Shown: positions 2,769 through 64,000 of the stretch, in pieces
Position numbering within the stretch: the stretch's first letter is position 1
Layout of the letters: each line of letters starts with the position of its first letter
Source: Polytrichum commune
Taxonomy: Eukaryota > Streptophyta > Polytrichopsida > Polytrichales > Polytrichaceae
Direction of reading: 5' to 3'
NCBI GenBank assembly: GCA_950295325.1
Contig: OX485809.1
Location: forward strand, 27,838,001 to 27,902,000
Length of the DNA stretch: 64,000 nt
Made by a program: the position numbers and the translations under genes
The notes under the pieces: model-generated
What the model was told of the DNA's origin: nothing
Seen by the model: only the letters and a program-made list of their open reading frames with translations
Databases searched by the model: none

Positions 2769-2791
2769 ATACATATGTTATATTTTGATCA

Positions 2792-3735
2792 CACGGGCAG
2801 ATCACTCTAAGGCATTTTTGTGCATCACGTGCGGTTGGGGGTTTTTTGTTTTGGGGCTATTTACCTTCAAGGGTTGAATTAAAGCCTCCCTATAATTACT
2901 TAAATTTCAAAAATGGCCCATTTGTTTGCACCCTTCCATTACTTATATTGTCCAAGTCACTGTAATTTTTTGTACTCTATATTCCTTTTAAGTAATAAAA
3001 GCTAATCTACTTCCTAACGCAATTGACGAGTGTTGAGGGAAAGCATGGAAACAAAGAATCCCTGTGAGTCCTAAACCACGGGGGGATCACACCCCCTTAC
3101 ATTTCATAACCACGTGCGATAAAAGTTTGCTACCCTATATTACATGCCATAGATAATTTTTAAAATTATGATATTTTTTCTACATACACTAACCATTGAT
3201 AATATCTTTTGTATATTTTTTTGAAATTTTTAGTCATCTTCATTTTTTGTAGTAATTTGTTTAGTTCAATGTTGCGTCATTCTAGTTAGAAACGGTATGT
3301 TTTATAAAAAAAAAAATCATCAAATTTGGTTACCAATTTTTACTATGTAATAGATACTATGTATATCTACTCATGAAAAAAAAATCATAAACTTTTGAAC
3401 CATTTTGGTGATGCTTTATGTAAAAAGTAGATTTTGTTTTATCGCACGTGGTGTTCAACTTGACAATGAAGTGCACCCCCCGTGTCCTAAACCCATTTAC
3501 ATACCATACTAAACATACCTTCTAGGATCCTTATCTTCAGCCCCTATATTAATTTTACGAAAAAAACAATGGCCCACGTTTTATGTCCATCTAACTTACT
3601 TATAATGGGATTGTCTACATTTAATGGCCCCTTCATTATTTGGAATTCCTTTATAATTTTTATTTCAAATGATTTGAATCCTCTCTATATTATGCCGCAC
3701 GTCGTTTTTAAAATGCACTAAGTGATCTACCTGTG
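2792..3735 (+). mobile_element. hAT-like MITE with CACGGG-type ends, interrupted by a second MITE
   Basis: The terminal inverted repeats begin CACGGGCAGATCACT on the left and, read inward on the other strand, CACAGGTAGATCACTTAGTG on the right. Flanks TTTGATCA (2784-2791) and TCTGATCA (3736-3743) match at 7 of 8 positions. An inverted full-length relative lies at 60812-61360 (549 bp). This copy is 944 bp because a 408-bp element with its own target duplication sits at 3077-3484; without them 528 bp remain. There is no transposase frame. An 8-bp target site suits the hAT group, though the end sequence is not a textbook hAT terminus. Confidence 0.8.
3077..3484. mobile_element. Nested MITE inside the 2792-3735 element (408 bp)
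   Basis: It is flanked by a perfect 8-bp direct repeat TCCTAAAC at 3069-3076 and 3485-3492. Its ends are CACGGGGGG on the left and CCCCCCGTG on the right. Subterminal inverted blocks (CACGTGCGATAAAA and its complement) lie further in. The interior is AT-rich with no frame. The ends resemble those of the host element, so both may use the same kind of transposase. It must be younger than the element it interrupts. Confidence 0.85.
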
Positions 3736-5281: not shown

Positions 5282-8200
5282 CACTTTCTCACCCTTATGT
5301 TATATTGATGGGCAAGGTGTACTACAATGATTATCTCAATTGGTGCGTGTTATTATTCGGAGTTACACAATGCAAGGACGACTTACTCCTGAGTTCAATT
5401 TTCTAACAAAAGTTCAATAGGGCGTTCGGACATTATGGAACATACTAAATGACCTTGTTTGGTAAGATCCTACATTCTCATTTAAATAGTTATAGCACTT
5501 TGTAGCTCCAATTAGTAACACACGCTAGTTGGGATAATCAGTGTAGAGAACTGGGAACCATTACATACTTGCACTCCTAGGGTATCATTGGGTTGAGCAA
5601 ATGTGGTCCGATCACCTTTAATTGTCATAAGAAGAATAAATGGTAGTCTAATTCACATCCATACAATTGGATTTCAAGAAAACAAAGTCTTTTTTGCTAC
5701 ATAACATAAATTGTCAGCACCGGTATTGAAAATGCCAGAAAATGGAATGTAAAGGCTTGAGAGTTTAGGAGTTAACAAACTAAGGGTGAATTTCCATGTA
5801 GGCCGCTTACCCACTAGATTTTAGATAATAATGAATTGGAGGTGTTCACATATAGTTAAGCACAAACTGCCATCCAACCACGTTTTGGTGGCATGCTAGA
5901 ATGGGGAGGGATGCGGACATGGGCCGCTAGACTTCCATGTGCCCTGTAAAGAATCTTTAACCTACAAATGCTAGTCACCGAAGGATCAATGCCTGTTGAA
6001 GGCTCAAAGAGAACCAATGTTGGTCTAGTACTCCATCCTTGGTAACTGGGATGAGGATGTTAGTAGGTGGGCCCGGATTTGAGAAGATGGGAGTAGCTAG
6101 TTGGCACATACCCTATCCCACCAGATTCCCTTTAAGCTCTATTATTGGGAATAGCCAATGAACTCCATTATAAGCTGTGGATGGAGCCCATCCTCCCATC
6201 CAAGGGCTCACGTCGCCCAAGGTTTAGCTGGGTGGGGTGAGTGGTGTTGCCACTTTTTCCTCCTTTCTCCACCCCTATCGTTATCACCACTTGTTCTCTC
6301 TGTTTGTACCTTATTGCCTCCTTTGTAATGTAGTGATGATTAGTGGAGGTAAGAGATGCTTCTTGTCTTGGAATTTTTAAAAGTTAAAATTGAGAAATGC
6401 ACTAGTTTCTCATTTGGGGCTTGTAGTGGATATGTATTCCCAAAGGCAATTCAACCTTGAACTAGGATGTAAGTAAATATGGACAAAAGGCTTATCCAAA
6501 AATTATAATGCATTTGTGAGTTATTTTTTGCACAATCAAGACATGGACATTGCACAACAAATTGTTTGAAGGAAGAAACTAGAAGAATATGATGAAAATT
6601 CCCATATTTACGTACTTTGAGAAGCAACATGATCCAAATATTCCCTCTAAGTGAGTATTTTTCTTCACAAATGACATAGTGTGCATGCAACTAACACGTG
6701 CTACAACAAGAGATGCAATGCACATCTAGGAGTAGTTGTTGTCATTTCTATTATAGGGTCCGCCGATAGAAGTGCACAAATAAAATTTCATTTTGTCTAG
6801 AACTTATGAATAAGTCTAGATTCACTTCAAAATAGTTCTTGTTGATTTCCCTTGTGATGAAGTTTTTGATTCTTGAATGGGGGGAGTAAAATTTTGATGG
6901 AAAGGAATTGAAAGTTGAGTTTGGATTGTGGGAGCATCAAAATTCGAAATCATAATTGGACCTTTTGATACAATTTTCTTAATGGAAAGGCCAACCTCCC
7001 TCCCTACTTATTTGTACTTGTATGTGTGAATGTACATAAGTGATCTTTTCATGTAAGCAATGATGCTAATTTTGGGTGTATTCTCTTATTAAGTGGGTTG
7101 GTCCAAATTCTTTTAAGTGTAGAACTACATTAGGTACTTCAAGTGTATGAAACGTAGCCAACTTCCCCTTTAGTTTTTGCTATGTGTGGCCATATGTAGA
7201 GTTTGAATAGCAATACGGGGCCACTTATTTCACTTTTCTTTCACATGCGAGGCCATTGTTCGCCTTATCAAAGCATACACATAACCTTGGATTTCTTCTA
7301 TGTACAATTAAAAGTCGCCACCCAAATTGACACATAGATTTTGTGCATTCACAAAATACTCCCTGTCATTAAGCTGAATGTAGCCACCCTAAACTCCACA
7401 AAATCCTCAAGCTCGCCCACCTTGGCTGGTTTTGAACTCAGCAATGTAGCCAAACCTATTACTTTTCAAAATCAAATTACAAGGGCTTAGACCCCATGAT
7501 TAAGTAATTCAATAGCTATTTCAAGTCGAGCCATCCAAGATGGATAACCAAAGGGTTAAGGTACAGAGTAGACAAACCCATTTCCAATAAACCCCCTCCC
7601 CCCTCTCCCCTCCCCAAAATCCTAATACATAGAGTCCCTCAAAGCTGTGAAATTCCACATATGTACCCGTTATTCTATAATTTGAAATGTTGAAAATAGG
7701 CTCAATGCATGACAAGTGCATAGTACAGTTGAATCGATAATTGGTGGTGGCCGGTTTACTAATTGAGACTGGTAATATTTGAAAAATGGAGGCGCATTGT
7801 CAAAAAATTGCCATACCTTGAAGTGGTTAACTAACTACAACCATGCAAATTTAGGTGTATTTATTGATTGATGCTTTATTATCACCAAGGTTGATGAAAT
7901 CAAATCTCAACCATTGTGGGTTTACGGAGTTTTTCAAACCACGATGCACCATGTTCATATTACAAATGTGATGCATAAGAAATTGGCCACGATTCGTTTC
8001 TAGAGTAGAGGATCAAATGAGAGTACGGTTGAAGTTAGTTCTAGTGTAACATTCAACTCATTGATTGTAGCTTAGTGTCTAGGCGTAAGGGATAATGAAT
8101 TGCATTGGTGAGGCATTGCATGAGGTGAGTGACACCTCCGATCATGTTGATGATGAGCATTACAATATTGACTATGAGGACCGCAACGGAATTGGGTTAA

Positions 8201-9070: not shown

Positions 9071-9289
9071 TAGAATCAAACTAGGTAACTTATAGAAAAT
9101 ATATTTCCCCATACATGGTTTGGTGTCGGAAGATTTGTAGAGTAAACTAATTCAAGGTCTTTAAAACTACTTCTGACATCGAATCTACTAGAAAAATAAT
9201 CTATGGGTTGCATACTATTTTAGGGCTTCTATGTTGAATGAATGAGAGGCATGTACACTTGTATATGATAATTCCCTTTCTCCATGCTT

Positions 9290-9860
9290 CAACTACATCA
9301 TTCAATGCTTAGAGTGTTGAAATTTAGTGTCCGTGAGAATCTGAGGGTTCCGACAAATGCAATAATGGAAACATTCTCAAGTCATCCAATTTATTTTATT
9401 TGAACAATGTAGGCAAGTGGGCGCAAACTTGCAACTGCTCTCATAGTGATCCGATAGACTTGTAGAGGGTCATGAACTGGTTCAATGCTTGGACTGAAGA
9501 TATGTATTGCCCACGTCAGAGTCTGTAGGTCCCAACCAATGCAACAATGACATGTGGCAAATTTCTTCCAAAGGTAAATGAGTTTTATGTTGAACCAATT
9601 AGGCAAGTTGGTGGTGCAAAATAGTGTATATCCTACCAACCAACTTGCAACTGCTTGGCTTCCCAGCTGTAGTGATCCAATAGGCTTGTAGTTTTTTTTT
9701 TAATCGTTGTAGAGCGTCATGAACAAGTTCATCAACACGTGGAACGTGAGACGTAATGTCCATGTGGGAGTCTCTTAGGGTCCAACCAATGCAACATTGA
9801 CATGTGGCAAATCTATTCTGGAAATGAATTATTTCATGTTGAACTAGATAGGCGGCCCAT
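9290..9860 (+). repeat. Diverged tandem repeat, about 2.5 units of ~230 bp
   Basis: The series 'cttgcaactgct', 'gatccgatagacttgtag', 'tcatgaac(t/a)(g/a)gttca' and 'ccaaccaatgcaacaatgac' recurs with an approximately 230-base period. A related block lies at about 47660-47970. Non-coding. A T-run at 9693-9701 interrupts one unit. Confidence 0.6.
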
Positions 9861-11362
9861 ACTACATTCTAAACTCTGTAGTATCACACCTGTGACAACC
9901 AAAAGTTTTGTAGTGTTAACATGGATGCGCGATACAATAAGATTAGTGTAACATGTGACGCTTTGGAATAACACAAAGTGCAACATTTTAATGGTGTGGT
10001 GTGGTCCACTTCACTTGGCCTTCATGGACGATGTGACGGACGCATGCACCCACATTTAAGAAATGGCATCAGAAGAAGAAGAAGAAGATCGCACTCCACA
10101 CATTGACACATGGAACAATGCGAGGGTGTGAGTTGACTTCTTTGGTGGTTTGCATTAATGACAAAATTCGTGATATAAGGAAGAGAAATGTGACAACAAG
10201 GAGTGAGATTTGAACTATGAACATCCGTTCCCTAGGGTTTCAGGATATTAAAGAGTGAGTGACATTATGGAAGTTGATATTACAGAGTTGAGGGTGTATC
10301 TAGTTAAGTATTGCAAAGACATTGTGTGAATTCTACAGTAGATTAGTAGCTTCCTCCAAGTCAGTGTGCCGTTGAAGTTTCCTCATGATCCTTCAAAGCA
10401 CCACGATTAGAAACTGAGGAAATGACCTGGCATTTGGTGGTCCAATTGACAGTACTACTGTACGATTAACATCATATACCTTGATCCTCATATACGGAGC
10501 GTTCCTTTACACCACTCGAACAAAAGAATTTGTTGTAGCAGTGAAAAGCCCAGTTTATTGATTACCCACAAGATCTAGTGGCCCTTTCACCCGAGTCCTT
10601 GGTACATATGGGATGTGCATGTACACTGGTTGTTTATAGGACAGAGTTGTCACACCATTAATGGAATTCATTTCAGAAAAATAACTCGTATGTGGAAGGT
10701 TGTGATGGCATTGTGAACTTCTTCCGAGACCTTGATAAGTTAAGGCGCAAGAATGTGTTGCAGAGGAGGTTGATGCTTACTTATGGAGTGAAGGACCTCG
10801 CAAGTCCAACGATCGATCCATTCGATGTTCATTGGAGCATGGCTATGCATGTATACACAAGATTGAGGACTAACTTAGAAACGTAGCAATACTGGAGAGG
10901 AGAATGTGCATTCATGAAAAATGATATTGTTCATATCTATGAGGTCAACTTTTATCATGCTAAATCTCTTTGACAAGGAAAGAAAACCACAATGATCTTA
11001 GACTACTAGGTCTCAAGTGTTCATTGGAGGTTTATACACACAGCTCATTGCTCTGTCCACCTCTTTAGATCTCGTGTTCAGACCAATTTACCTTTCTCCA
11101 ATTTAATTTGTAGATAAAGATCATAATTATATCATGTCATGCACCAATACTGTTAGAATACATTCATGAGCTTCATCACTTGATTTTATAAGAAATTGGC
11201 TTCAAAATGCGGAAGATAATGACACAATAGAGTTGAGAGTTCAATCCTAGTCAAAGTTACAGAAAGGTATGTGCTTCCAAGCTAATATTCTCTCGGACTC
11301 AAAGAAAAATGATTACATGTGGGGTTAAGACAAATATTTTCCCTTCTCACAAGAAAGTTAAC

Positions 11363-30459: not shown

Positions 30460-33400
30460 ATGAAGGACATCCAGCAAGTCTACGAAGACGACACGGCGAC
30501 AATTGGCAATGGAGCTGCCGCAGGCTCCGCACAAAATGTCAGAGAGTATCATGTCGAACGGCCAGTGCATGTCGACCCAATTCATCACATATATCGAGAG
30601 CGAATGCCAGCAATATTCTATGTGAACACACTTTACCCGCACTTCTACGCAGACTCTATGGTCGCTCACCATACCGAAGCTGATCGGAACGTGCGAGAAG
30701 CTTTGCAACTTGCTGCAGCAGCTTCAGCTCCTTTTAATCAAGGATGCCACTTTCCGCAGCCTTACGGTCCTGGATGTCTTTTACCCACTATCATCCCAGT
30801 GGTAGAGCCGGAGGCATACATGCAGCAACATTACAGTGGGGATCAGAACATCAGTACCTGCTGGTTCTCTCCGGGCATCCCCCTGGAAAGTGGGCAAGGG
30901 TCATCTTCTTCTATGGAAGGATATCCTGGCAACGAAACAGCGGCGATAACTCGCCAACGGTCAGGTCTTAAAGAGCTTGCTTTGCTGCCAGGGTGCGAGG
31001 TTTCAAGTGCCAACGACCAGAATAATCAGGAGCAGGAGCAGACTTCCACTATCGTCGAAGAGGTTGTTTGTATCGGTGCTAGGTCTGGTGTCGGTCGTGA
31101 GGAAGCACAGCGTCCAGCAGCAAGAGCAAGGCGAGGGGGTCCTGGATTTCAAAGTGCACAGAACCTCTCTCCCTCGTTGTTCCAGACCCATGCCGCCGTT
31201 GGTCAGGTGGCGTTGGTAATCCCAGATCCTGTGAAGCTTAGGGCCAAGAAGAAGGAGAAGGGGATTGTGGTTGACTTGGGCTTGACTATTTCGCCAAATC
31301 AAGCAAGTTATCTCGCAAATGCCAGTTCGAGCCACCATATCCCTACAAGGGCTGCAAGCTCCGCACCCACCTTGACGGCGCCGAACGGCAGTGAGCCATC
31401 GCCCCCAAAGAGCAACGATCAGGTTATAGAAATTTCCAGTAACTCCAGGATGGCTGCCAACCTCTCCGCAGGACATGGCGATCAGCAGAAAACAACTCTG
31501 AAGAATTCTCGATTCATGAAACCCATAATGGACATCTTGCAGGAGGTTTGTCACCTCACAATTGTCCAGCAAGCTCGTCAGCGCCCTGGTCATCCCGCAG
31601 TTCGACAAACAGGTGCTAGATTAAATGTTGAAGGAGAGGCCTTCGATCCTCCAGCAGATCCCAGGCTTGGATCAGCGCGTGCTCCTGCGGCTGGAAGGGC
31701 CAATTTAGCAAACCTACCTGTACCCTTGAGGCTCGAGACGGCAAGCGTCATCGAGCTTGAGACTGAGAAGCAGAAACTTCTGAAGATGCTGGAGGAGGTA
31801 AAATCTTTCAACAACTCCAAGATCAACTTGATTTGATCTGTTTCATCAATACAGCAATGCATTTCCAAATTAGTAGTGTAGTGGAAACCTTTAATTCATT
31901 AGAAGTTTCGGTACATGGTCCATTTACTTGTGTGTGATCTTTAACTTTTGAAGCCCAGATTTTAGTTATAAGCTTCGGTTGTGGACTATCGAATTATTTG
32001 ATCACACAGGTATTACAAATTCAGACATGAAGTGAGTTGGGATGCATTGTGGCAAGTTTATCAATCTAATGTTACATTGAATTTTTGTTGGTGTTTTACA
32101 GCTGACTAAAAAGTACATGTTGCACATGGAGAGACTTGAGAGACTCATCAAACAGTTCAACGAACAGGCAGGGGAAGGCATGGCCGAACTGTATATTGCA
32201 ATCGTCCAGCTGACATTGACGCGTAACTTTGGGTTATATTCCTACTTGATTTCTTTGCAAGCTCATTCCTTTCAGTTCTTTTACTCCTTGATTAAATCAA
32301 TAGATAATTTGGGTTACAAGTTTTTTAACCCACTTCATGATGGTCCGAACGAGCGCCTCATTTACTTTGCGTTTCCATTTGTCGTAGAGCTGTGAAAAAT
32401 GCAATAGTTCGTCGACTTCGGGCAGTGCGGGGAGCTCTTGGAGAAGATATCAGGTTTGTGTTCAGAGCTGTCCAGCCAGGTGCACTAGTTCCTCAGGCAT
32501 CAAATGCATGGAGGGCCCAGCGAGGACTTCCCGAGATTGCTGTTGGGCTTCTACGCGGCTGGTTGTTTGAGCACTTCTTGCATCCGTGAGTGTCCCCCAA
32601 CCTTGTATCTACATGAATTCTGGTCACAGTTTGCAGTTTTCGGGGCTTCTATCCAATTCACCGGACGAGTTCGCATTAGGTCATGTTATTTGTGGTAACA
32701 TTAACAAATGCATTCAATGTGGAATATGTTTCACTTATTAAGAGCATGTAGTTTATGTTTTGCAATCTTTGCAAAAATCTCTATCTTCGTGACTTGTCAT
32801 GTTTTGCAGCTATCCCGAAGACAAGGATAAAACGGAATTGGCCGGCCAAACTGGATTGTCCAGGTCCCAGGTATGAACTCGAATTACAGCTCTTATACGT
32901 TTTCTTAGTGAGCGATGAGCTCTTCAAAAATCGCAGGAATTATTTCAGCAATACCATATCAAATTCCAATATCATTATTTTTTCAGATGGTGATGTTTCA
33001 AGCAAGGAGGGCTCCTGATCACTGCTGGACGGTGAAGTGCTTGCAGGTCTCCAATTGGTTCATCAATGCAAGAGTTCGGCTGTGGAAGCCGATGGTGGAA
33101 GAAATGTATAAGGATGAACTCATGCGGGAAGGGGCTGAAGAGTGCGAACAGGAGGTCAGAGCTGAGGCTGAAAGAGAAGCGTCCGCAGAGCCAATATGCA
33201 AACTTCTGGACATGAACCACGATGTGCAAGCCTCCATTGAGGCAGAGAATACTGATCATAACCTAACGATCGATCACTCGAGTCAAGCTGGCATTGGTCA
33301 GGTGCAGCGTCCAGACGCGCAAATGGGAGTGAATGAGCGTGGACTCATTCATGTTTACAATGGCGGAGGAGCTTCTTCATCACATCAGCCCGACATCGAG

Positions 33401-33505
33401 CTCGAGGTGTTTCTCACAATGCCCGAAGAATTCGCTCATGTGGACAATCGGCTACGACCAGCCATGCCACTCAAAATCTGCAAACTAGAGCCAAAGGACA
33501 CCTGA
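30460..33505 (+). CDS. BELL-class TALE homeodomain transcription factor
   Basis: Five exons: 30460-31797, 32102-32232, 32388-32585, 32810-32870 and 33047-33505, with GT-AG introns, giving 728 residues in one exact frame. Residues about 350-364 ([15 protein letters not shown]) are a SKY-type box. Residues about 432-512 form the BELL domain, which with SKY normally binds KNOX partners. Residues about 531-593 are a TALE homeodomain with the three-residue loop PYP, the helix FEHFLHP, and recognition helix [15 protein letters not shown]. Such proteins act in the nucleus as KNOX/BELL dimers; in non-flowering plants this pair starts the diploid programme. A stretch near 270 (VVDLGLTIS) resembles a ZIBEL motif. 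The BELL domain is more diverged than the homeodomain. The start is the first ATG of the long exon; a leader intron is likely. The family call is firm, the orthology is not. Confidence 0.95.
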
Positions 33506-41224: not shown

Positions 41225-41545
41225 GTAGTTTCCATTAAAATGAGAGTATGTTAAGCTGGGAAATCGACTCATTTAGGTTGAGTCGACCTAAATGAGGACA
41301 ATATTTTGTCAATTTAGGTTGAGTCGACCTAAATGAGGACAATATTTTGTCAATTTAGGTTGAGTCGACCTAAATGAGGACAATATTTTGTCAATTTAGG
41401 TTGAGTCGACCTAAATGAGGACAATATGTTAGTCAATTTAGGTTGAGTCGACCTAAATGAGGACAATATGTTGTCAATTTAGGTTGAGTCGACCTAAATG
41501 AGTCGATTTCCCAGCTTAACATACTCTCATTTTAATGGAAACTAC
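41225..41545. mobile_element. Fold-back element: 54-bp perfect inverted repeat around a palindromic satellite
   Basis: The arms 41225-41278 and 41492-41545 are identical over 54 bases in inverse orientation (outer end GTAGTTTCCATTAAAATGAG). Between them, TTAGGTTGAGTCGACCTAA occurs six times at spacings of 41, 41, 41, 42 and 41 bases, joined by aatgaggacaatatt(t)tgtcaa. Each unit holds a short stem TTTAGGT/ACCTAAA. No target duplication is evident and there is no frame. The satellite palindrome resembles the one in the 58-kb array. Confidence 0.9.
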
Positions 41546-54190: not shown

Positions 54191-54730
54191 TAGGTGAAAC
54201 ACTATATTCGTTAAATTGAGACTTTCTCTAGTCTCAAATTAATATATGGATCAAACAACATGAAGATGTCTGAAACTATATTGTCAACAATCTCAAATAT
54301 ATTAAATGTTCTAATATCCCACACCTATGATGTGCGGACATAAGCACATATGGTAGAGCACTCAACACCAATTTCATCAACAAAAACACATTGGGTAGAG
54401 CACTCCAAACAAGTTTCACCCAAAAATATATATATAATGATTTCTATTATTAGCATGCTCCATAGAATATAGACATTGCAACATACAAAGTGCATGTAAT
54501 AAATGCATATTTTTTCAATGGACAATTTAGTCCCAAACTTAATAAAAAAATGAACTTCACATTTGTATTGAAATATAGTAAATGGATATTCATCCAACTC
54601 CAAAACAATATAGTATTCGTAAGTTCTACCCAAACTCTGCCCCAATTTTGAAGAGCACACATATGAGTAATATATGTTCGTAGAATTACTGTTTACACTA
54701 TAATCATGCTAACACAATCCTACCAACTTC
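54191..54730. other. 3' flank of the DUF7869 gene
   Basis: AT-rich. A 111-codon minus-strand frame at 54325-54660 has no known motif. No terminal inverted repeat pairing with the other side of the gene was found within the window. Confidence 0.4.
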
Positions 54731-57700
54731 TCATTCAACGTGGGTTGCTTCTTCTGCGATCCGAGCAAGGTTGTCTTTTGCAAAAGTTATGTACTTTTGA
54801 GGGATGGACACTGATCCACTATGATTTTTCCGTGGTTTCCATGCTATGAATATGGAATCTGTATCTACCCAAGATGGACCGTGCTCAGAATCCACCTTCC
54901 ACCGAAAGTTAGGGTTTGTATCCCAGCCTGTATAATGCCGAATCACATCTTCATTCCTTGCCGTCGGTCGGTAGTACTCCACTTGTATTTGTCGAAAATG
55001 AGGGCTGGAAGTTACAAAATTGGGTTTGGACAAAGCTCTTGCCACCCACACTGGCTTCACATATGTCTCGTCTCCAGGACGCAAAATGAGCATATATCCT
55101 TCATGACAATCCACTGCAATGCGGAAAGATGGTGGCGGACGACTACTAGCAGGCCCCACGTAATGGTCGTCCACATCAAACTCCTCTCGAACCTCTCCAT
55201 TTCCCAAAAGACTAGCCTCTGAAGCTTGTACATCGACTCGTGTTTGTGGCCAAAATCCATGCCTCAAAGTATGAGGGCTATCTTGGTGGAGGTCTACCAA
55301 GGCGGCACGAACACGTGTCCAATAATGTATCCAACTCCCATAACGATGCCAACATGATCCGCCAACATCCGCTATCTTCAAACTCTCCCAATATTGTATG
55401 AAGCCTGATATACCTTTCAAAATATCCTCCAAATTCTTCATGGCTATTGGCTTACAAGGGCTAGGCTCCCCATCCGGTAACATGGTCTTCCCATCCGCAT
55501 CCACGCGCCACACAAGAAGACCCTCCGGCGGGCTCCAGTCTTGTGTCGTGCACAACAACTTGTATTGCATGGCCGGGACACCATCGTCACGCATGTAGAA
55601 CCGGAATTGTTGTGCCTTCGTATGCCCGATCAATCGGTGAGCTCCACTTCGAATATAAGGTTCTATAAATGCCTTGAAGTCTGGCACCTCCTCAATCATA
55701 TGGGGGATGACGGGAACGTTCTCCAAATCCATGTACGACTTCATCAATAATGGGATTGTAGGAAAATCCTCCTCCCGCAACTTCATGCTCCACCGCCCAA
55801 AAGATGCATCAATATCATCGTGCGTGTGGCCTACCAATAGGAAGGACACAAAAACCTCCTTGAAAATGCCTTTCGCAACCAACAACGACCAATATGCAAA
55901 TACATATCTGCTTTTATTGTCCTTGGCACAATTGTCCAATTGGACACGCAAAGTTGGAGGCAATTTCTTGGCAATCACGGGTTCATTGGGTGGCTCGGGC
56001 AACGAATGCAAGCATACATCTTTTCCATCCAACACCGCTTCATATAAAGGTGTTGAACCCGTGTTCTCAAATAACAATCCTGAAGAATAGGCTGGTGGTT
56101 TCTCTAAATCACGTAAAAGCCTTGCAAATGATCCTATCGTGTGGTTTGAATCCGCTGGATACAAATCAAGAGCATAATGAGCAAACTTGACATCACCGTG
56201 TCCATGTGCAATCATTCCTGCAATGCCAACCCAACGTGATTAGCATCTATGTATGAATAAACCATTATGAAGGAATCCATGTTCTCCAGTACATCACGGA
56301 ATAAAAAACCACAACATTTAGGGTATGTCATGACATTGTTTCGAAGTTCACCTGTAACCGATACAGGCAACTTAAAAAACCCATCCGTGGCCTTGATTCG
56401 ATTTGCAAAACATGGGGAGGCTGTTTTGGCATGGTCCATTTTGTCATGGATGACCGTAAGAACCTCCAAGGGCCTGGAGATGGACAAAGCTCTATTTGTG
56501 TAGTAATCATTACGGTGTGCCTCTTGCATGTTTACGTGCTTGAAATAGTTCAATTGATGCGCTGCATATGACTCGGTACCCATCGTGTGTGCATCCCGGA
56601 GGCGCTTCAACTTCTCGCAATTAGAGCACCTGGCAAATTTGTCCCCTCGTCTTTTTGTAATGTATTCGCTAAAGTTTTGTTTCTTGATTGCACTTAATTT
56701 TGACAATGAAATTGGCTCCAACCCAATCTTCTCGCCAACTGCATTAACGTCCAACAATATGTCTTTCCATTTTGTGCCTGTGGGAAGAACTTTCTCCACA
56801 ACCTTTTCACCGGTTGTGAGTGTGCGTGTTTTGTGCGGCATTGCATCAGCAAGGGGGACAATGATGGTTGCTAGAGTTGCCGTTGCTTGCCTTGTTGCTT
56901 CCCTAGGTTTCTTTAAACCCACGTTCCCATTGTGACGGGACCGGCGGCCTTCCTTGGCATAAGCAGCTTGTCTATAGAAGTCCGCCTTCGACACACCGTA
57001 AATGGTGTACCATGCCTTACAACACACGTCTATGCTTTCAATGATGATTACCTTGCGACCCGTCCCATTCACATGTATTGCCCTATGGACATCAAGTTTT
57101 TTTGTGGATCTTAGACGAAAATCTCCAAGCCACATTTCTTCACGGATGGCCTTCAATTTATCCCTTGGAAACAATTGGCAACAACAATGCACACAACAAT
57201 CCTTTGTGGCAACTTCTCTTATGGACTCCTCCCCAAGCAGCCTTTGACATTTACAATCAGTTGCAGATGGAGAAGGACGTGCCACAGTATCGTACTTTCT
57301 TTGACCCTTGCGTGGCCGCATGTTTGATTGCATTTCCTTTTCGAGTTGCATGTGTCGTTGCTCATGTTCACGCAAGCTAACTCCATCAGTCGTGACATTC
57401 CTCAATGGCCACCTGCGGAGGGAGAACCTATGAGTGGGATCCACCTCAGAAGGAACGAGTGACTCCAATATGACAATCCCAACGTCCTCGGTGCCAAGCG
57501 GATTTTGATCAATGCAATCTTGTGGATGGGTGTTACGACAGATACCCTCCGCCACAACAACCCCATTGTCATTAAGAAGTAACACATCCAAATTCACCCA
57601 TGAAGCTCTTGAAAGCACGGCACACTCTGGAATGGGACAGTCCGGTACGGAACGCGAAGGTATATCGAAATGCTCTTCATCTGAACTCTCATCCATAGTA

Positions 57701-57855
57701 GCCTCCCCGACAATGTCTAGCTCTTCCTCAGATGCAGATGGCCAAGTGGCCATGTCTTCTCCAGACGAATACCCTCTTCCAGTATACCCATCCATTTTGC
57801 CTACACACATGAACATGGAACCTTGTAAAGAATTGACAAAAGCTATAGGGTCCAA
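54731..57855 (-). CDS. DUF7869-type protein, putative RNase-H-fold transposase
   Basis: Two exons, 57855-56352 and 56217-54731. They are joined across a 134-base intron (TTACAG|GTGAAC to TTGCAG|GAATGA) and give 996 residues with no stop. Removing the intron restores KLPVSVTG-MIAHGHGD. Without splicing the two frames overlap at ATGA. Residues 1-60 are acidic. Residues about 200-240 and 275-295 are cysteine-rich (DCKCQR, CCVHCCCQ, VCCKAW), a likely zinc-binding region. A possible acidic triad is D519 (YALDLYP), D596 (VQLDNCAKDN) and D635/D638 (VGHTHDDID). The tail (about 870-970) resembles a BAH/SH3-like fold. Family function is unproven; a cut-and-paste or domesticated transposase is inferred. 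A later start at residue 21 is possible, since an acceptor-like GTGTAG precedes it. The palindrome array lies 125 bases upstream. Confidence 0.8.
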
Positions 57856-58009
57856 TAGAAAAACACAGAAACCTTATCAATTTCGATATCCAGAAAATAC
57901 TCAACAATTTGTTGTATGAATATTATATCGATGGGTTCCAAAAAGATGGAGCGCACAACAGTTTATTCAGGATCCGTCTATGCACATCCCCATTGTGTGC
58001 ATGAGGGTG
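57856..58009 (-). promoter_or_regulatory. Short upstream region between DUF7869 gene and palindrome array
   Basis: About 150 bases, AT-rich, separate the first ATG from the array. It should contain the core promoter if transcription starts close to the gene. No TATA box is decisive. Confidence 0.35.
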
Positions 58010-58885
58010 GGTTTGGGTCGAGCAACCCAAACCTCGTGATAGGATGGGCCTGCTAATCCAGGCCCAACCCGTGACAGGGGTGGGTTTGGGTCGCTCGACC
58101 CAAACCTCACAATGGAGGTGGGTTTGGGTCGCTCGACCCAAACCTCACAATGGAGGTGGGTTTGGGTCGCTCGACCCAAACCTCACAATGGAGGTGTGTT
58201 TGGGTCGAGCGACCCAAACCTCGTGACAGGATGGGCCTGGTAATCCAGACCCAGCCCTTGATAGGGGTGGGTTTGGGTTGCTCGACCCAAACCTCGTGAC
58301 AGGATGGGCCTGGTAATCCAGACCCAGCCTTTGATAGGGGTGGGTTTGGGTCGCTCGACCCAAACCTCGTGACAGGATGGGCCTGCTAATCCAGGCCCAA
58401 CCCCTGACAGGGGTGGGTTTGGGTCGCTCGCCCCAAACCTCACAATGGAGGTGTGTTTGGGTCGTGCGACCCAAACCTCATGACAGGATGGGCCTGGCAA
58501 TCCAGGCCCAACGCGTGATAGCGGTGGGTTTGGGTCGCTCGACCCAAACCTCATAATGGAGGTGGGTTTGGGTCGAGCGACCCAAACCTCGTGACAGGAT
58601 GGGCCTGCTAATCCAGGCCCAACCCGTGACAGGGGTGGGTTTGGGTCGCTCGACCCAAACCTCACAATGGAGGTGTGTTTGGGTCGAGCGACCCAAACCT
58701 CGTTACAGGATGGGCCTGCTAATCCAGGCCCAACCCGTGAGAGGGGGTGGGTTTGGGTCGAGCGACCCAAACCTCGTGACAGGATGGGCTTGCTAATCCA
58801 GGCCCAGCCCGTGATAGGGGTGGGTTTGAGTCGCTCGACCCAAACCTCACTATGGGGGTGGGTTTGGGTCGAGCGACCCAAACAT
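58010..58885. repeat. Array of ~16 palindromes TTTGGGTCGNNCGACCCAAA
   Basis: About 16 copies of a 20-22-base palindrome, with central pair CT, AG or TG, starting near 58012, 58084, 58123, 58161, 58198, 58270, 58344, 58418, 58455, 58528, 58567, 58639, 58677, 58750, 58824 and 58863. They are spaced about 38 or 73 bases apart. The longer spacers carry a second palindrome of form GGGCCTGNTAATCCAGGCCC (eight copies, some changed); the shorter carry cacaatggaggt. Reading frames across the array are artefacts of the repeat. It is not CRISPR: the 'spacers' are themselves repeated and the host is a eukaryote. Confidence 0.95.
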
Positions 58886-60811
58886 TCCGCAAATTCCGCC
58901 TTAAATTGCGGTAATCTTCCATATTTAGCTACGTGGATACTAATTGGAAGAATTCAGGCCGTGCATGGCTGTTGTAATTAGCTACTCATCAACGGATGCA
59001 TACACGAACCTTGCACTCCACCACTACTTGAGAGAGCTTGCAACCATTTCAGAATGGAGAGATGAGAAAAAAGGAGCAAAGTTTGGGGGGTTTGGTACTT
59101 TATACTACCCGCCTCCGCCTTGGCCTTCCTCTTTGGATCCCTTTCCCGCCCGAACGTAAACCCTAAACCTAAGTTCAAACCTTCTGACAGAATTTCCCGC
59201 TTCTTGTTGGTAATAGAGCATCCATATTTAGCTTGCCTCTTCGTGGCGCCAACCATCAAATGACCTTGGACAACTAACCTCCTAATTCCGCTATTAAATA
59301 ACTACACAAAATATGATGTGTGGATTTGATTATATGTAGTGTTGTTACCACCAGTGTCCGAAAAGTTTTTGAAGTTATTGAGGTTAATTGCCTACCTCTT
59401 TAAAAGGGCATAGGCTATTTCCCTCATGGCATAGGTTGCATCCTACAATATCAAATTTTTGTAAGTTGAAAACCTTTTGAGTTTTTAAGTTACCTGCCAA
59501 TTGCCTTTAAAACTAATTTTTAGTAGGTTAAAATCCTTCATATCTTTTAATGTTGTAGGCTTTAAATTCAAAATTTGAGTACTAAGTGGTATCCTTGGCA
59601 GGAATTGAACCTGGCTAAGCCCTTCACCACGTTTGAAGGCCAAGGATTAACCAACTCCTTTTTAAAGAGTTGATTATAAGTTATGAAAGGTTGCTAAAAT
59701 TCAAATGAGTTTAAGGGTGAAAGTCCTCACCATCTTCTGATTCAACCTCTATGCGGTGATGGGGCTTGGGCTGTGGTATTTGTAAAGATCGACGGGGAGG
59801 GAGTCAGGGCTATTATTGATATCCGCCTATGTGCCACTCAAGAGCCCCGAGTATTAGCCTAAAGATATGTACTTAGGCCAACTAATTTCCCAATTTGAAG
59901 AAGGATGAATGGCTAAAATCCGCTCTTTTAAAAACTTTGTAGGCAAAATTTCCTACATGTTTTTTACCACATAGGTTGATATCCTATGTTTTAAAATTGT
60001 CCATAGGCTCTTTGTCCTACACTTTCAAAATTTTATAGGCTAAGTCACAAATTTTGTAGGCTGCATTTACACTAGCCTTAGGCTCTTGGCGGACTATGGT
60101 TACCACCCTTACATGCTCAACATTAATTTTCAATCCTATGACAGTTAGTGTTAGAAGTAAATGTGTTGCTACCTTCTACTCTCACGTATATTTCTTCTTT
60201 TCACATCCTTACTAACACTAAATTCAAACATGTCAATGCCACATATTACTATAGCTTATATTTAATGTTTATTACTTTCATATGGTTATTGATATATTGT
60301 GTATTCACTTGTATTTAGTGTATCAAACACTAAATATCATACTTATTGTAGTTGTGTTTTGTACCTATAGTTTTTATTGATTTGGCTTGCCAAAAAAAAT
60401 GTAATCAACTTTATTTGTTTTAACAAATGTTTGATGAAAAATCTAAACATATATAGTTGTATCTATTCAATGCAAGTTGAGCAGAACATGTCCTTAAATA
60501 CATGTTGGTGTGTTCTAGTGTCACTACACTAAATAAGATATTTAGAGATTTATACACTAAATATGAACGCATCTACGACGTAACATAACATACATAACAA
60601 ACATAACATGAAATGTAACCAACGTTCATGTTCATGAATTAGACTATTGTGATATCTATATACATTTGTTTTTAGAACCACAAGCGACTTGGCCCCCTCA
60701 TTTGACCTATGCGCCATTCATTTATGGCTTCGAGTGCAACAAGACACATTTATATACCCTAAACCCTAAACCCTACACCCTACACCCTCGTAGTTGTTCA
60801 GGGTTGCTTCC
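58886..60811. other. Intergenic, AT-rich
   Basis: No gene. From 59390 to 60070 short phrases like cataggct, tcctaca and tttgtaggc recur irregularly about every 40 bases. Near 59600 'ggcaggaattgaacctggc' faintly resembles a tRNA B box. A 93-codon minus-strand frame at 58978-59259 has no motif. Confidence 0.4.
60757..60789. repeat. Short interstitial telomere-like repeat
   Basis: About 33 bases: CCCTAAACCCTAAACCCTAC followed by variants CCCTACA. CCCTAAA is the usual plant telomere unit. Only two exact units occur, so this may be chance or a repair scar. Confidence 0.6.
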
Positions 60812-61360
60812 CACGGGTAGGTCACTTAGTGCATTTTAAAAACGACGTGCGGCATAATATAGAGAGGATTGAAATCATTTGAAATAAAAATTATAAAGGA
60901 ATTCCAAATAATGAAGGGGCCATTAAATGTAGACAATCCCATTATAAGTAAGTTAGATGGACATAAAATGTGGGCCATTATTTTTTTGTAAAATTAATAT
61001 AGGGGCTGAAGATAAGGTTCCTAGAAGGTATGTTTAGTATAATGTTTGCTATGGTCTCCTATGTGTTTTTTTCATAACTTTGTTTGCAATGATATTATTG
61101 TTTGCACCCTTCTTTGTTTCCATGGTTTCCCTTAACAGGAAGTAGATTAGCTTTTATTACTTAAAAGGAATATAGAGTACAAAAAATTGCAGTGACTTGG
61201 ACAATATAAGTAATGGAAGGGTGCAAACAAATGGGCCATTTTTGAAATTCAAGTAATTATAGGGAGGCTTTAATTCAACCCTTGAAGGTAAATAGCCCCA
61301 AAACAAAAAACCCTGAGCCGCACATGGTGCACAAAAATGCCTTAGAGTGACCTACCCGTG
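60812..61360 (-). mobile_element. hAT-like MITE with CACGGG ends, uninterrupted copy (549 bp)
   Basis: Inverted relative of 2792-3735. Ends are CACGGGTAGGTCACTTAGTG and, on the other strand, CACGGGTAGGTCACTCTAAG. Flanks TTGCTTCC (60804-60811) and TGGCTTCC (61361-61368) match at 7 of 8. It lacks the nested 408-bp insert. Non-coding. Confidence 0.82.
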
Positions 61361-62250
61361 TGGCTTCCATATAGAACACCATCTACTGTAATTTGTGCCT
61401 CATTTCCTAATAAGATATGTTGTTTAATATATGTGGAGGGATCATCCAACAACAAAGTGATTGCTTAAATGGCTTCATATAATGTTGAACTCCACATATT
61501 AGTATTTGATAGCTTCATATTTGTATACATGGTGCTTCTCTCATTTACTATCACTATATTCAATATTTGTAGACTTTATCTTGTCTCAACTAAATATATG
61601 AACAACAACAACATTGTCTAATGTTTGGGTCGTCCTACCTAAACCATCTTCATATGAGTTCTTAATTGGGTTCTTCAGCAAAAACACCCGCTTCAATATA
61701 TTTGTATCTCATAAATATGTAAACTTGTAAATAAGTATGTTAATGTTCCATCATGCTATAAATCAAACAACATCTTTGTTGCTTTTCGCAAACAACAATG
61801 ATATTAAGTTGTCAACACTTAATATTGCATAATTCCATATTATAATGAATGACACTACATAAACTTGTATAATTAGATTTAGTTCAATGGTATGTGTTAA
61901 CGGATCCATCGTAGGCTATAGCATTGTCCTTTACCAACAACCTTCATAGATAATTACAATATATAACTGGAAACCATTCATTGTGTAAATGGTTACCATA
62001 GTTATATTATTCCATTATGTAATTGCCTACGAGGATTGCAATATAATTATTAAATACTCCTCTTAGTCTAGTATCTATCATTCTCGATTCATGCATATGT
62101 GTAGATTACTAAAATTACAAAACCAATACAGTTTCATTATTTGATATTAGCAAATCCATCGGGGGACCATTAAATTAAAAACCTTAGGCTATAAAGGTTT
62201 TTTAGTATCCTCAAGGATGGTATGGGATAGGTGGCTAAAGGATACCCACC
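61361..62250. other. Intergenic, AT-rich
   Basis: No gene. At 61624-61645 a single degenerate palindrome (tttgggtcgtcctacctaaa) resembles the 58-kb motif. Confidence 0.4.
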
Positions 62251-62259
62251 TGCGAGGCC

Positions 62260-62660
62260 TATCGACCGTCGATGGGCCTGGGGCTCTCCAATGGCTCAAA
62301 TTGTGTATTCGTTTGGGCCATGGAGCGCCCCGTGACACGTGGCGGCCATGAGCCGAACGGACACGAAAGGCGCCGGCCCGAATGGGTCCCGCCCTTGAGT
62401 GACCTTCCCCCTTTCACTCTCCCCTCCGCACTTTCTCCTTCTCTCTCCTCCGCTCCAAGCTCCTCCTCCTTTGTACGTTCCTCATACTTTCTGGAGGCGC
62501 CGCCGCTCTTGAAAGCGCCGCCTCCTCCCTTGCATTCTCTCTCTCCTTGTCGAACTCGCATTCCCTCTCTCCTTCCCTCTTCATCATTATCTCATTCTCT
62601 CTTTCACTCCTCCTCTTCTTTTGATCTATTTTGTTGTTCATTGAGTGCGCATTGACCGAG
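62260..62660 (+). promoter_or_regulatory. GC-rich, CT-rich promoter-like region
   Basis: G+C rises sharply after 62250. A G-box-type ACACGTGGC lies at 62335-62343. From 62400 to 62640 the plus strand is a long pyrimidine stretch (ctctcc, cctcctcc), as in many plant 5' leaders. A plus-strand frame of 127 codons (62272-62655) is low-complexity serine and proline and is probably not a protein. If a gene starts here it would run rightward out of the window; no coding exon is seen. Confidence 0.4.
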
Positions 62661-62910
62661 TTCTAAGTGTAGTATGAGTTTAGGGTTTGTTTTTGTATTA
62701 AAGTCTATACATTTTAGCCATTTCAGAACGTCTTTGTTGTTTTGGAGTGTGAGTGTTGTTTCAAAGTGGTTGTGTCAGTTCCTCCTGGTCTTAGAAACAT
62801 TCATGTGTGAGTGTAGAGTGATTTCGGAATTAGAATGATTGTTCGAAAATCAGGATGCATGTGTGGCCTTCAGATAGCTTCTTTGTTCATGTTTGTAAAC
62901 ACTTGTTACA

Positions 62911-63038
62911 TTCAGAGTGAATGTTTGTGAGGGATTGTTTAATTCTGAGTGAATGTTTGTGAGGGATTGTTTAATTCTGAGTGAATGTTTGTGAAAGCTT
63001 CTTCAATTCAGAGTGAATGTTTGTGAGGCGTTCTTAGT
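62911..63038 (+). repeat. 32-bp tandem repeat, four units
   Basis: Units of ttc(a/t)gagtgaatgtttgtga plus a variable tail start at about 62911, 62943, 62975 and 63007. The first three are nearly identical. Confidence 0.85.
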
Positions 63039-63264
63039 TTTCTGATATCCAATCCTTTCTAGAATCAGCTTCCAAGACTAGCTTGTTAGAACTGCTTCCA
63101 ACAGCAGCTTGTTGTGTAGTTTGCAAAGCAAGGTGATTTCTTCAACTTCTTTATGTGTGTCAATTTCTTTAGAGTTTCGCAGCATCTACAATGCATAAGC
63201 ATTGTATATGCTGCGTAAACACATTATAAAGGTCTCTGGAATCAAAAGTGTTTCGAGAGACGAC

Positions 63265-63950
63265 CCAAACTTCAGTTTGAAGCCCTAAAACACTAAACTC
63301 TGCAGCTGGTTTGGGTAGAGCGACCCAAACTCTCCAGCTGGTTTGGATCGTTCGACCCAAACTCTAAAGATGGTTTGGGTCGTTCGACCCAAACTAGCAG
63401 ATGCTCTGGGTCGTGGGCGCCAATCCATCTGCAGAGTTTGGGTCGCTCGACCCAAACCATAAGCATTGTTTGGGTCTAGGGTTTAGCCAAACTCCGCATC
63501 AAATGTTCATTTATAATTAATTTAATCATCATCTTGGGTGAATATCTAACCCTATCGACCCAATCCATCTGCAGAGTTTGGGTCGCTCGACCCAATCCAT
63601 CTGCAGAGTTTGGGTCGTTCGACCCAAACAGCGCATGAAATGGTAATTCATAATTTAAGTAATCATCATCTTGGGTATGATCTAAGGCCATAGCCGATCA
63701 TTCCATACCGCTACAAAGTTTGGGTCGAACGACCCAAACTTTGCGTAAATTTTTACTGCTTACGAACAATACTTACACTTATAAACAACAACTCAAACAC
63801 CCAAGCAATAATGAAATGACCCACAACTAGAACAGTAGCTCGTGATGATTGTTGTATCCATGAACTTAAAGATTGGTTTTCGTAGCCAAATAATATATTA
63901 TTCATTAGCCATTGTAGGCACAGGTTTGGGTCGTTCGACCCAAACCTGTG
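63265..63950. repeat. Second cluster of TTTGGGTCGNNCGACCCAAA palindromes
   Basis: About nine full or near-full copies at roughly 63309, 63343, 63374, 63437, 63578, 63609, 63718 and 63922, plus half sites near 63265, 63409 and 63556. Centres are CT, TT, AA or AG. Several are preceded by ctgcagagtt or cagctgg. The last (63919-63948) extends to a perfect 28-base palindrome. Spacing is less regular than in the 58-kb array. The cluster may continue beyond the window. Confidence 0.9.
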
Positions 63951-64000
63951 AAAAGTAACCCCATATATAAATGTTACTAAACCCAGACATAAGCCTATAT

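Follow-up and report, generated by a model that had tools for sequence, protein, structure and literature searches.

Palindrome arrays beside a DUF7869 gene of Polytrichum commune lie within a large transposon and are predicted to be binding sites for a protein of the element

A stretch of 64,000 nucleotides from contig OX485809.1 of Polytrichum commune, positions 27838001-27902000 (the whole of it is called the window below), contains a long gene with a DUF7869 domain and, a short distance upstream of this gene, a dense array of short palindromes. What is the gene, and what might the palindromes be for? An initial annotation, made from the letters alone, had suggested either a transposon or a domesticated transposase, with the palindromes as its binding sites. 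The data presented below demonstrate that gene and palindromes are parts of a transposon, named here family A. We consider it probable that the DUF7869 protein is its transposase and that the palindromes are sites at which a dimer controls the element's own genes.

The ends of the element are exact. A sharp left boundary at window position 54198 is common to the window copy and to all eight of the other gene copies that were fetched, and the flanks beyond this boundary are unrelated. The left terminal inverted repeat of 28 bp, AACACTATATTCGTTAAATTGAGACTTT, occupies positions 54198 to 54225 on the forward strand and is matched perfectly by the right end at positions 7546-7573 of the stretch L011, 7.6 kb beyond the end of the window. 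In full the element measures 17,376 bp; the portion within the window extends from 54198 to 64000 and the rest runs on to L011 7573 (window-equivalent 71573). It is flanked on either side by GTGA, with the left copy of this target-site duplication at 54194 to 54197 and the right copy following the right end in L011.

A count of the 25-bp terminus throughout the genome gave 333 exact matches for one strand, 343 for the other and none for the control. On contig C1, the 91 ends listed include 35 adjacent plus/minus pairs less than 60 kb apart. Two of these pairs are small (3.6 kb and 4.8 kb), 21 are mid-sized (14.4-18.5 kb) and 12 are long (22.7-44.1 kb). Target duplications were sought at 21 of these 35 pairs, comprising 19 of the 21 mid-sized pairs, both small ones and none of the 12 long ones. 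An exact 4-bp duplication was present at all 21, and the duplicated sequence varied. Inverted repeats together with target duplications of fixed length are the features by which a cut-and-paste-type DNA transposon is recognized, and both are found here. Exon 2 of the DUF7869 gene, for which there were 1861 first-look candidates, is present in at least 87 scored copies with 97-100% amino acid identity, 72 of which are free of internal stops. Family A is therefore a large, recently active DNA transposon of the cut-and-paste type with hundreds of copies; about 335 copies of roughly 17 kb would make up some 1.4% of the 408-Mb genome, almost all of which is contained in seven contigs of 42-78 Mb. 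The common end, the inverted repeats and the duplications across the collected copies bear out the proposal of a transposon. Its alternative, a domesticated single-copy gene, is ruled out by the many near-identical copies that retain intact transposon ends and duplications. Elsewhere in the window, at 2790-3735, there are two fragments that are 90-97% identical to DNA in L003, L004, L006, L007 and L008, and these may represent a piece of family A or a common repeat.

The DUF7869 gene is read leftward, from the reverse strand. Exon 1, which begins with the ATG and encodes a Cys-rich region and an HDKMD motif, lies at 56352 to 57795; it is followed by an intron of 134 nt with GT..AG borders (56218 to 56351) and by exon 2 (54731 to 56217), which encodes the LDNC..DNK and GHTHDDID motifs. 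The initial annotation was right about the intact gene and its single intron, but the 996 residues that it gave are counted from an upstream non-ATG codon at 57855, and the product has 976 amino acids when counted from the ATG. An intronless relative, L065, reads SIAGMIAHGHSD without interruption over the position of the splice junction, and this supports the splice. In a Pfam scan the only family recovered was DUF7869 (PF25273), with E 3.5e-44 and a score of 151 bits compared with a curated cut-off of 26, so that the original assignment to this family holds; the relatives are also members. A search with the DUF7869 profile yielded 150 scored matches among 1491 candidates in this genome and none in 14 control genomes. 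When viral contigs were searched for the DUF7869 exon, there was one pattern match, which was no relative. Sequence searches of the PDB gave best E-values of 0.24 for the protein, 0.84 for profile A1 and 0.18 for profile A2, none of them credible, and a literature search by the name DUF7869 found no paper. Pfam assigns no function to this domain, which is tied here to a defined mobile element.

Several features suggest that the DUF7869 protein is likely to be the element's transposase, of the DDD/E type. An alignment reveals three conserved acidic blocks, D.MD, DNC..NK and GHTH[DE]D[IV]D, and the proposed catalytic triad would consist of the D in HDKMD, the D in LDNC and the D or E in GHTH[DE]D. 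The initial annotation had anticipated an RNase-H fold, and the predicted order of strands and helices is compatible with this expectation, in models of low confidence. In the predicted structure of L065 (mean predicted local distance difference test score, pLDDT, 49) the order is b-b-b-a-b-a-b-a, as in an RNase-H-like fold. In this model Asp 386 of HDKMD would end the strand at 380-386 and Asp 511 of DNC the strand at 505-511, and GHTHED (546-551) comes after the last strand, at 537-543. The top five Foldseek matches to the model were Mos1, four times, and IstA, with E 0.07-0.13. A cropped model, of unimproved confidence, gave a mixed list in which Mos1 ranked 3rd, 12th and 29th and Hermes 32nd and 34th. 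The structural evidence for a DDD/E core is thus supportive but weak.

The element also contains a second gene, ORF2 (open reading frame 2), which is read rightward and has several exons, and a frame for a NIF-type phosphatase. Palindromes are found upstream of both DUF7869 and ORF2. The first array, at 58004 to 58883, contains 16 sites of the form GTTTGGGTCG-NN-CGACCCAAAC (at 58012-58882), of which 12 are exact and four have one mismatch in a 14-base core. The initial annotation described about 16 palindromes of 20 bases starting about 150 bases upstream of the gene; the number was correct, while the array starts about 217 bp upstream of the ATG, the unit is 22 bp and eight more sites are present at 63310 to 63944. 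These eight form the second array, which is directly upstream of ORF2 and is joined by one more site at element position 9816, beyond the end of the window. The window has 24 matches to the palindrome compared with a mean of 0.01 in shuffled sequences. Exact copies number 9731 in the genome, with none for the reversed control, and the idea that the palindromes are special to a single gene copy is thereby ruled out.

To describe the site, we took 101 examples from the window element (38), L001 (39) and L002 (24), allowing up to three mismatches in 18 arm bases. The arms are nearly invariant across this set, partly because of the way it was selected. The bases directly outside the searched core were not selected, and these are G in 96 of the 101 sites and C in 99. 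The next pair outward is complementary in 77 of the 101, and beyond it the information is only 0.03-0.33 bits, so that conservation drops within 2-3 bases of the palindrome edge. At the central two positions, 12 of the 16 dinucleotides are used. Because the unselected outer bases are fixed, the centre is free and the edges are sharp, the unit is the 22-bp site and not merely a tandem repeat. Fixed arms, a free 2-bp centre, sharp edges and a sequence that is specific to each family (see below) are what would be expected of sites for a dimer, and the palindromes behave in this way, which favors the original suggestion on this point. The arrays might instead be a by-product without function, a tandem repeat or hairpin generated by replication slippage at palindromes. 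Much of the material is indeed tandem, with periods of 38, 73 and 111 in the output of Tandem Repeats Finder. But the site recurs in units with unrelated flanks, singly, in introns and in coding sequence, its arms stay constant while centre and flanks vary, and the same build appears in three families. We regard this explanation as very unlikely.

The placement of the sites was then considered. In the window element, 16 of the 38 sites precede DUF7869 and nine precede ORF2 (element 9113-9835). Five are in intron 1 of ORF2, three in intron 2, two in its coding sequence and one just after it, and two weak sites are at 7427 (two mismatches) and 16870 (three mismatches). Exact sites number 25-33 in each of the five copies for which at least about 16 kb was read (window, L004, L007, L008 and L010), 37 and 16 in the 10-kb pieces L001 and L002, and 15, 6 and 14 in the shorter L003, L005 and L006. 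These counts agree with the total of 9731 for the genome. L009 has no site in the 8 kb that were read, and its similarity to the window ends within the gene. The palindrome thus accompanies the gene in seven of the eight other fetched copies, as had been supposed, with L009 as the exception. Among the first 100 sites listed for the genome, 81 fall within three stretches of about 10 kb; two exact end pairs enclose 63 of the 100, another 18 have a single exact end no more than about 16 kb away, and no exact end is near the other 19. The two palindromes in coding sequence, at L011 4384 and 4453, are in frame in a proline-rich stretch of ORF2 and read FGSSDPNP and FGSADPNP. Their position gives the impression that the site itself might be capable of insertion.

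It had been proposed that the palindromes serve in recognition of the ends. For family A this is rejected, since in the window element the sites with up to two mismatches are kilobases away from the ends and the 28-bp inverted repeats do not contain the motif. In a related family (B, below), single sites do occur near an end, at distances of 0.2 kb (with one mismatch) and 0.6 kb, and there we consider a role in end recognition only unlikely. A broader version of this idea is that the palindromes are internal sites, needed for transposition, to which the transposase binds, as in elements with subterminal repeats. The presence of sites in all five copies read over at least about 16 kb would be expected, as would the single sites near an end in family B. 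Copies without palindromes are also rare. Small derivatives make up two of the 35 adjacent end pairs on C1, namely L052 and L053, internally deleted copies of 3.6 and 4.8 kb whose ends and duplications are intact. The deletion junction of each has one exact match in the genome, so that each may have lost its interior after insertion. This rarity and the junction result neither show nor exclude a need for the sites in transposition. Against this explanation, the sites are placed by gene starts and in introns. In the window element, 3.8 kb separate the left end from the first site, and 2.8 kb separate the right end from the last site with no more than two mismatches; closer to the right end, at 0.5 kb, there is a single match with three mismatches. 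We consider a requirement for transposition to be an unlikely explanation of the palindromes.

If the sites were recognized by a protein of the element, related elements might be expected to differ in their sites. The genome contains two further families of DUF7869 transposons, B and C, each with a DUF7869/ORF2 pair. Family B has an open frame of 692 amino acids (43% identity). The end on its DUF7869 side, GGGGATATTAACTAAAATGAGAC, is common to the four copies fetched and has 41 exact copies; the far end was located in one of the two stretches tried. One copy (C1 33991808-34018603, 26.8 kb) is flanked by CAAG and CAAC, which agree in three of four bases. Family C proteins are 27% identical in L057 and L058. 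The copy measured is 11,008 bp long and has AACACCGGTTTCGTTAAAAGTGCA as its inverted repeat of 24 bp; the 4-bp duplications (TTCC and GAAG) were exact at both of two copies. When the terminus patterns of B and C were lengthened, searches recovered few plus/minus pairs or none. AACAC....TTCGTTAAA is common to the termini of A and C, and ATATT...TAAA.TGAGAC to those of B and A. The ORF2 relatives of family B match at E 1e-13 and 2e-11 (25-31% identity). The family C relative aligns at 30% identity (L056), with a weak direct match at E 5e-4, and this L056 frame is 93-94% identical to two family C copies.

Each of these families has a palindrome of its own. That of family B, CCACGGGTG-NN-CACCCGTGG, occurs 819 times exactly in the genome (reversed control 0), and the two stretches read contain 11 and 10 exact sites, or 15 and 13 when up to three mismatches are allowed. 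These are upstream of DUF7869 and near the ORF2 end, and one is between two DUF7869 coding frames. The palindrome of family C, GGTGAGGCA-NN-TGCCTCACC, is arranged in tandem units of 59 to 61 bp and occurs 155 times exactly (reversed control 0); no palindromes were found in 3.5-kb stretches around the family C gene. An unguided count leads to the same build. Perfect palindromes with 9-base arms and spacers of 0-8 were counted, leaving out arms of A and T only, and each stretch was compared with five shuffles. A spacer of 2 was the commonest class in all seven element stretches of the three families, accounting for 27 of 35, 13 of 19 and 22 of 35 in A, 10 of 17 and 10 of 14 in B, and 5 of 8 and 3 of 4 in C, with shuffle totals of 0-3. 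Each of the three families thus has its own site, which suggests that protein and sites have changed in step.

This comparison bears on the possibility that the palindromes are bound by a protein of the host, such as a transcription factor, and were exploited by the element as a promoter module. Sites upstream of both genes would suit such a module. Yet the three families carry three different sites of one build in a single genome, which fits family-specific proteins of the elements and is less easily reconciled with a shared host factor. The concentration of 81 of the first 100 listed sites in three stretches and of 63 within exact end pairs also argues against it. Recognition by a host protein is in our judgment improbable.

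Which protein of the element might bind the sites? The candidates are ORF2 and the Cys-rich N-terminal part of the transposase. ORF2, which was not visible in full to the initial annotation, seems the best of these, as good as or better than DUF7869 itself. Its exons are at L011 58-1386, 1700-3031 and 3254-4764, with splice sites judged by eye, and the ATG at L011 58 corresponds to element position 9861. The best Pfam match to ORF2 is to the helix-turn-helix bundle HTH_70, with E 0.14 and 12.8 bits compared with a cut-off of 27. Exon 3 matched no Pfam family at E up to 1. A ParB-like DGQH and a glycine motif like that of methyltransferases, noted by eye, are not claimed here, as the Pfam scan of exons 1-2 at E up to 10 contained neither family. 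Exon 2 of ORF2 has an in-frame stop in the window copy, so this copy of ORF2 is not intact, though the DUF7869 gene beside it is. Among six other copies, exon 2 has no stop in L007, L008, L001 and L010 and one elsewhere in L004 and L002; exon 1 has none in the window, L007, L008 and L001 and one each in L004, L010 and L002. Near the right end, at L011 5308-6054, is the NIF-type (HAD) phosphatase frame (PF03031, E 7.5e-16). It is perhaps a captured host gene, and a search of a 10-kb stretch of family C did not recover it.

Taken together, these results favor a model in which a dimer of a DNA-binding protein encoded by the element would bind the palindromes at the promoters and in the introns of the element's genes and bring about their activation or their escape from silencing. 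Expression control or anti-silencing is placed first because the distribution of the sites, which form non-coding arrays, are specific to each family and change between relatives, resembles that of the targets of VANC proteins, discussed below. A number of observations weigh against this model. The sites could serve a host factor. The deleted copies L052 and L053 contain no palindromes, and two sites of the window element fall in the coding sequence of ORF2. The sites of family C are mostly imperfect, with 5 of 23 and 2 of 28 exact when up to two mismatches are allowed. ORF2 exons 1-2 gave nothing above a Pfam cut-off at E up to 10, and ORF2 had no match to PHROGs below E 0.04; with neither a Pfam nor a PHROG family, its role in DNA binding is only a guess. 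As for the transposase, the structure models have low confidence (mean pLDDT 49-50), no Foldseek match reached E 0.001 and transposases do not dominate the matches to the cropped model.

Two other features of the window may be recorded. At 41225-41545 there is a foldback of about 320 bp with five to six tandem units of 41 bp and another palindrome-like core, ATTTAGGTTGAGTCGACCTAAAT. It is flanked by inverted copies of AGTTTCCATTAAAATGAGAGTATGTTAAGCTGGGAAATCGA and may be a small non-autonomous element. At 30460-33505 are exons of a probable BELL-type homeobox gene, which encode a POX domain (PF07526, with E 1.8e-7) and part of a homeobox KN domain that falls just short of its cut-off.

No description of this element was found among the titles and abstract openings listed by searches of open-licence papers. 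The nearest known class is Sola. Sola elements are described as having a DDD transposase, inverted repeats that range from 11 to 1124 bp and target duplications of 4 bp; some exceed 15 kb, and they occur in a moss and are uncommon in flowering plants (PMC10741241); Sola1 is listed for Physcomitrella (PMC9033089). Families A and C share the 4-bp duplication, and inverted repeats and large size are further points of likeness. The available Sola descriptions name neither a second gene of the ORF2 type nor palindrome arrays, and the Pfam scan of the DUF7869 protein named no Sola family. We therefore call the element a Sola-like DUF7869 transposon and do not present it as a proven Sola, the likeness being one of description. 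The maize elements En/Spm and Ac carry many short subterminal sites that are bound by an element protein and crowd the ends. The many copies of a short site are a feature in common; in the window's family, by contrast, these are located by gene starts and in introns.

The VANDAL elements of Arabidopsis, which belong to the Mutator superfamily, another transposon class, offer the closest parallel for the arrays. VANC motifs are reported to be mainly non-coding, to be arranged often in tandem and to vary from family to family, and the VANC protein is itself encoded by the element (PMC5735166, PMC10398659). Arrays of short motifs that are specific to each family, lie in non-coding DNA and diverge between related families are also present here, except that two of the 38 sites of the window element (with up to three mismatches) are in ORF2 coding sequence. 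All four features thus have a counterpart, with only a candidate for the protein. In a strict version of this parallel, ORF2 would be a VANC-like protein that binds the non-coding arrays and relieves only its own family of silencing marks, by removing or blocking them. We regard this version as possible but doubtful. The VANC motif is described as 8-9 bp long and the site here is a 22-bp palindrome, in an element with 4-bp duplications and short inverted repeats; the main text of PMC5735166 does not contain the term "palindrom". ORF2 and the scanned family C frames, moreover, are below every Pfam cut-off, and ORF2 is not known to be VANC-like.

Whichever protein is involved, a domain of unknown function is now tied to a recently active transposon with exact ends, and its role as a transposase is directly testable for this reason. 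The three families constitute three natural experiments in one genome, in which related transposons have different palindromes of the same build. Simple binding tests could thus address the means by which a mobile element labels its DNA as its own, and the joint change of a protein and its site. If the palindromes are targets of anti-silencing, they would represent a further system of this kind, in a transposon class other than that of Arabidopsis. It is conceivable, and we advance this tentatively, that a group of giant plant transposons evolved self-recognition separately from the Arabidopsis VANDALs, by means of a second protein that binds a 22-bp palindrome with a free 2-bp centre, of which promoters and introns contain about 10-40 repeats, with only members of the same family being protected or activated. 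Each family would then have switched its palindrome and kept the 10-2-10 build.

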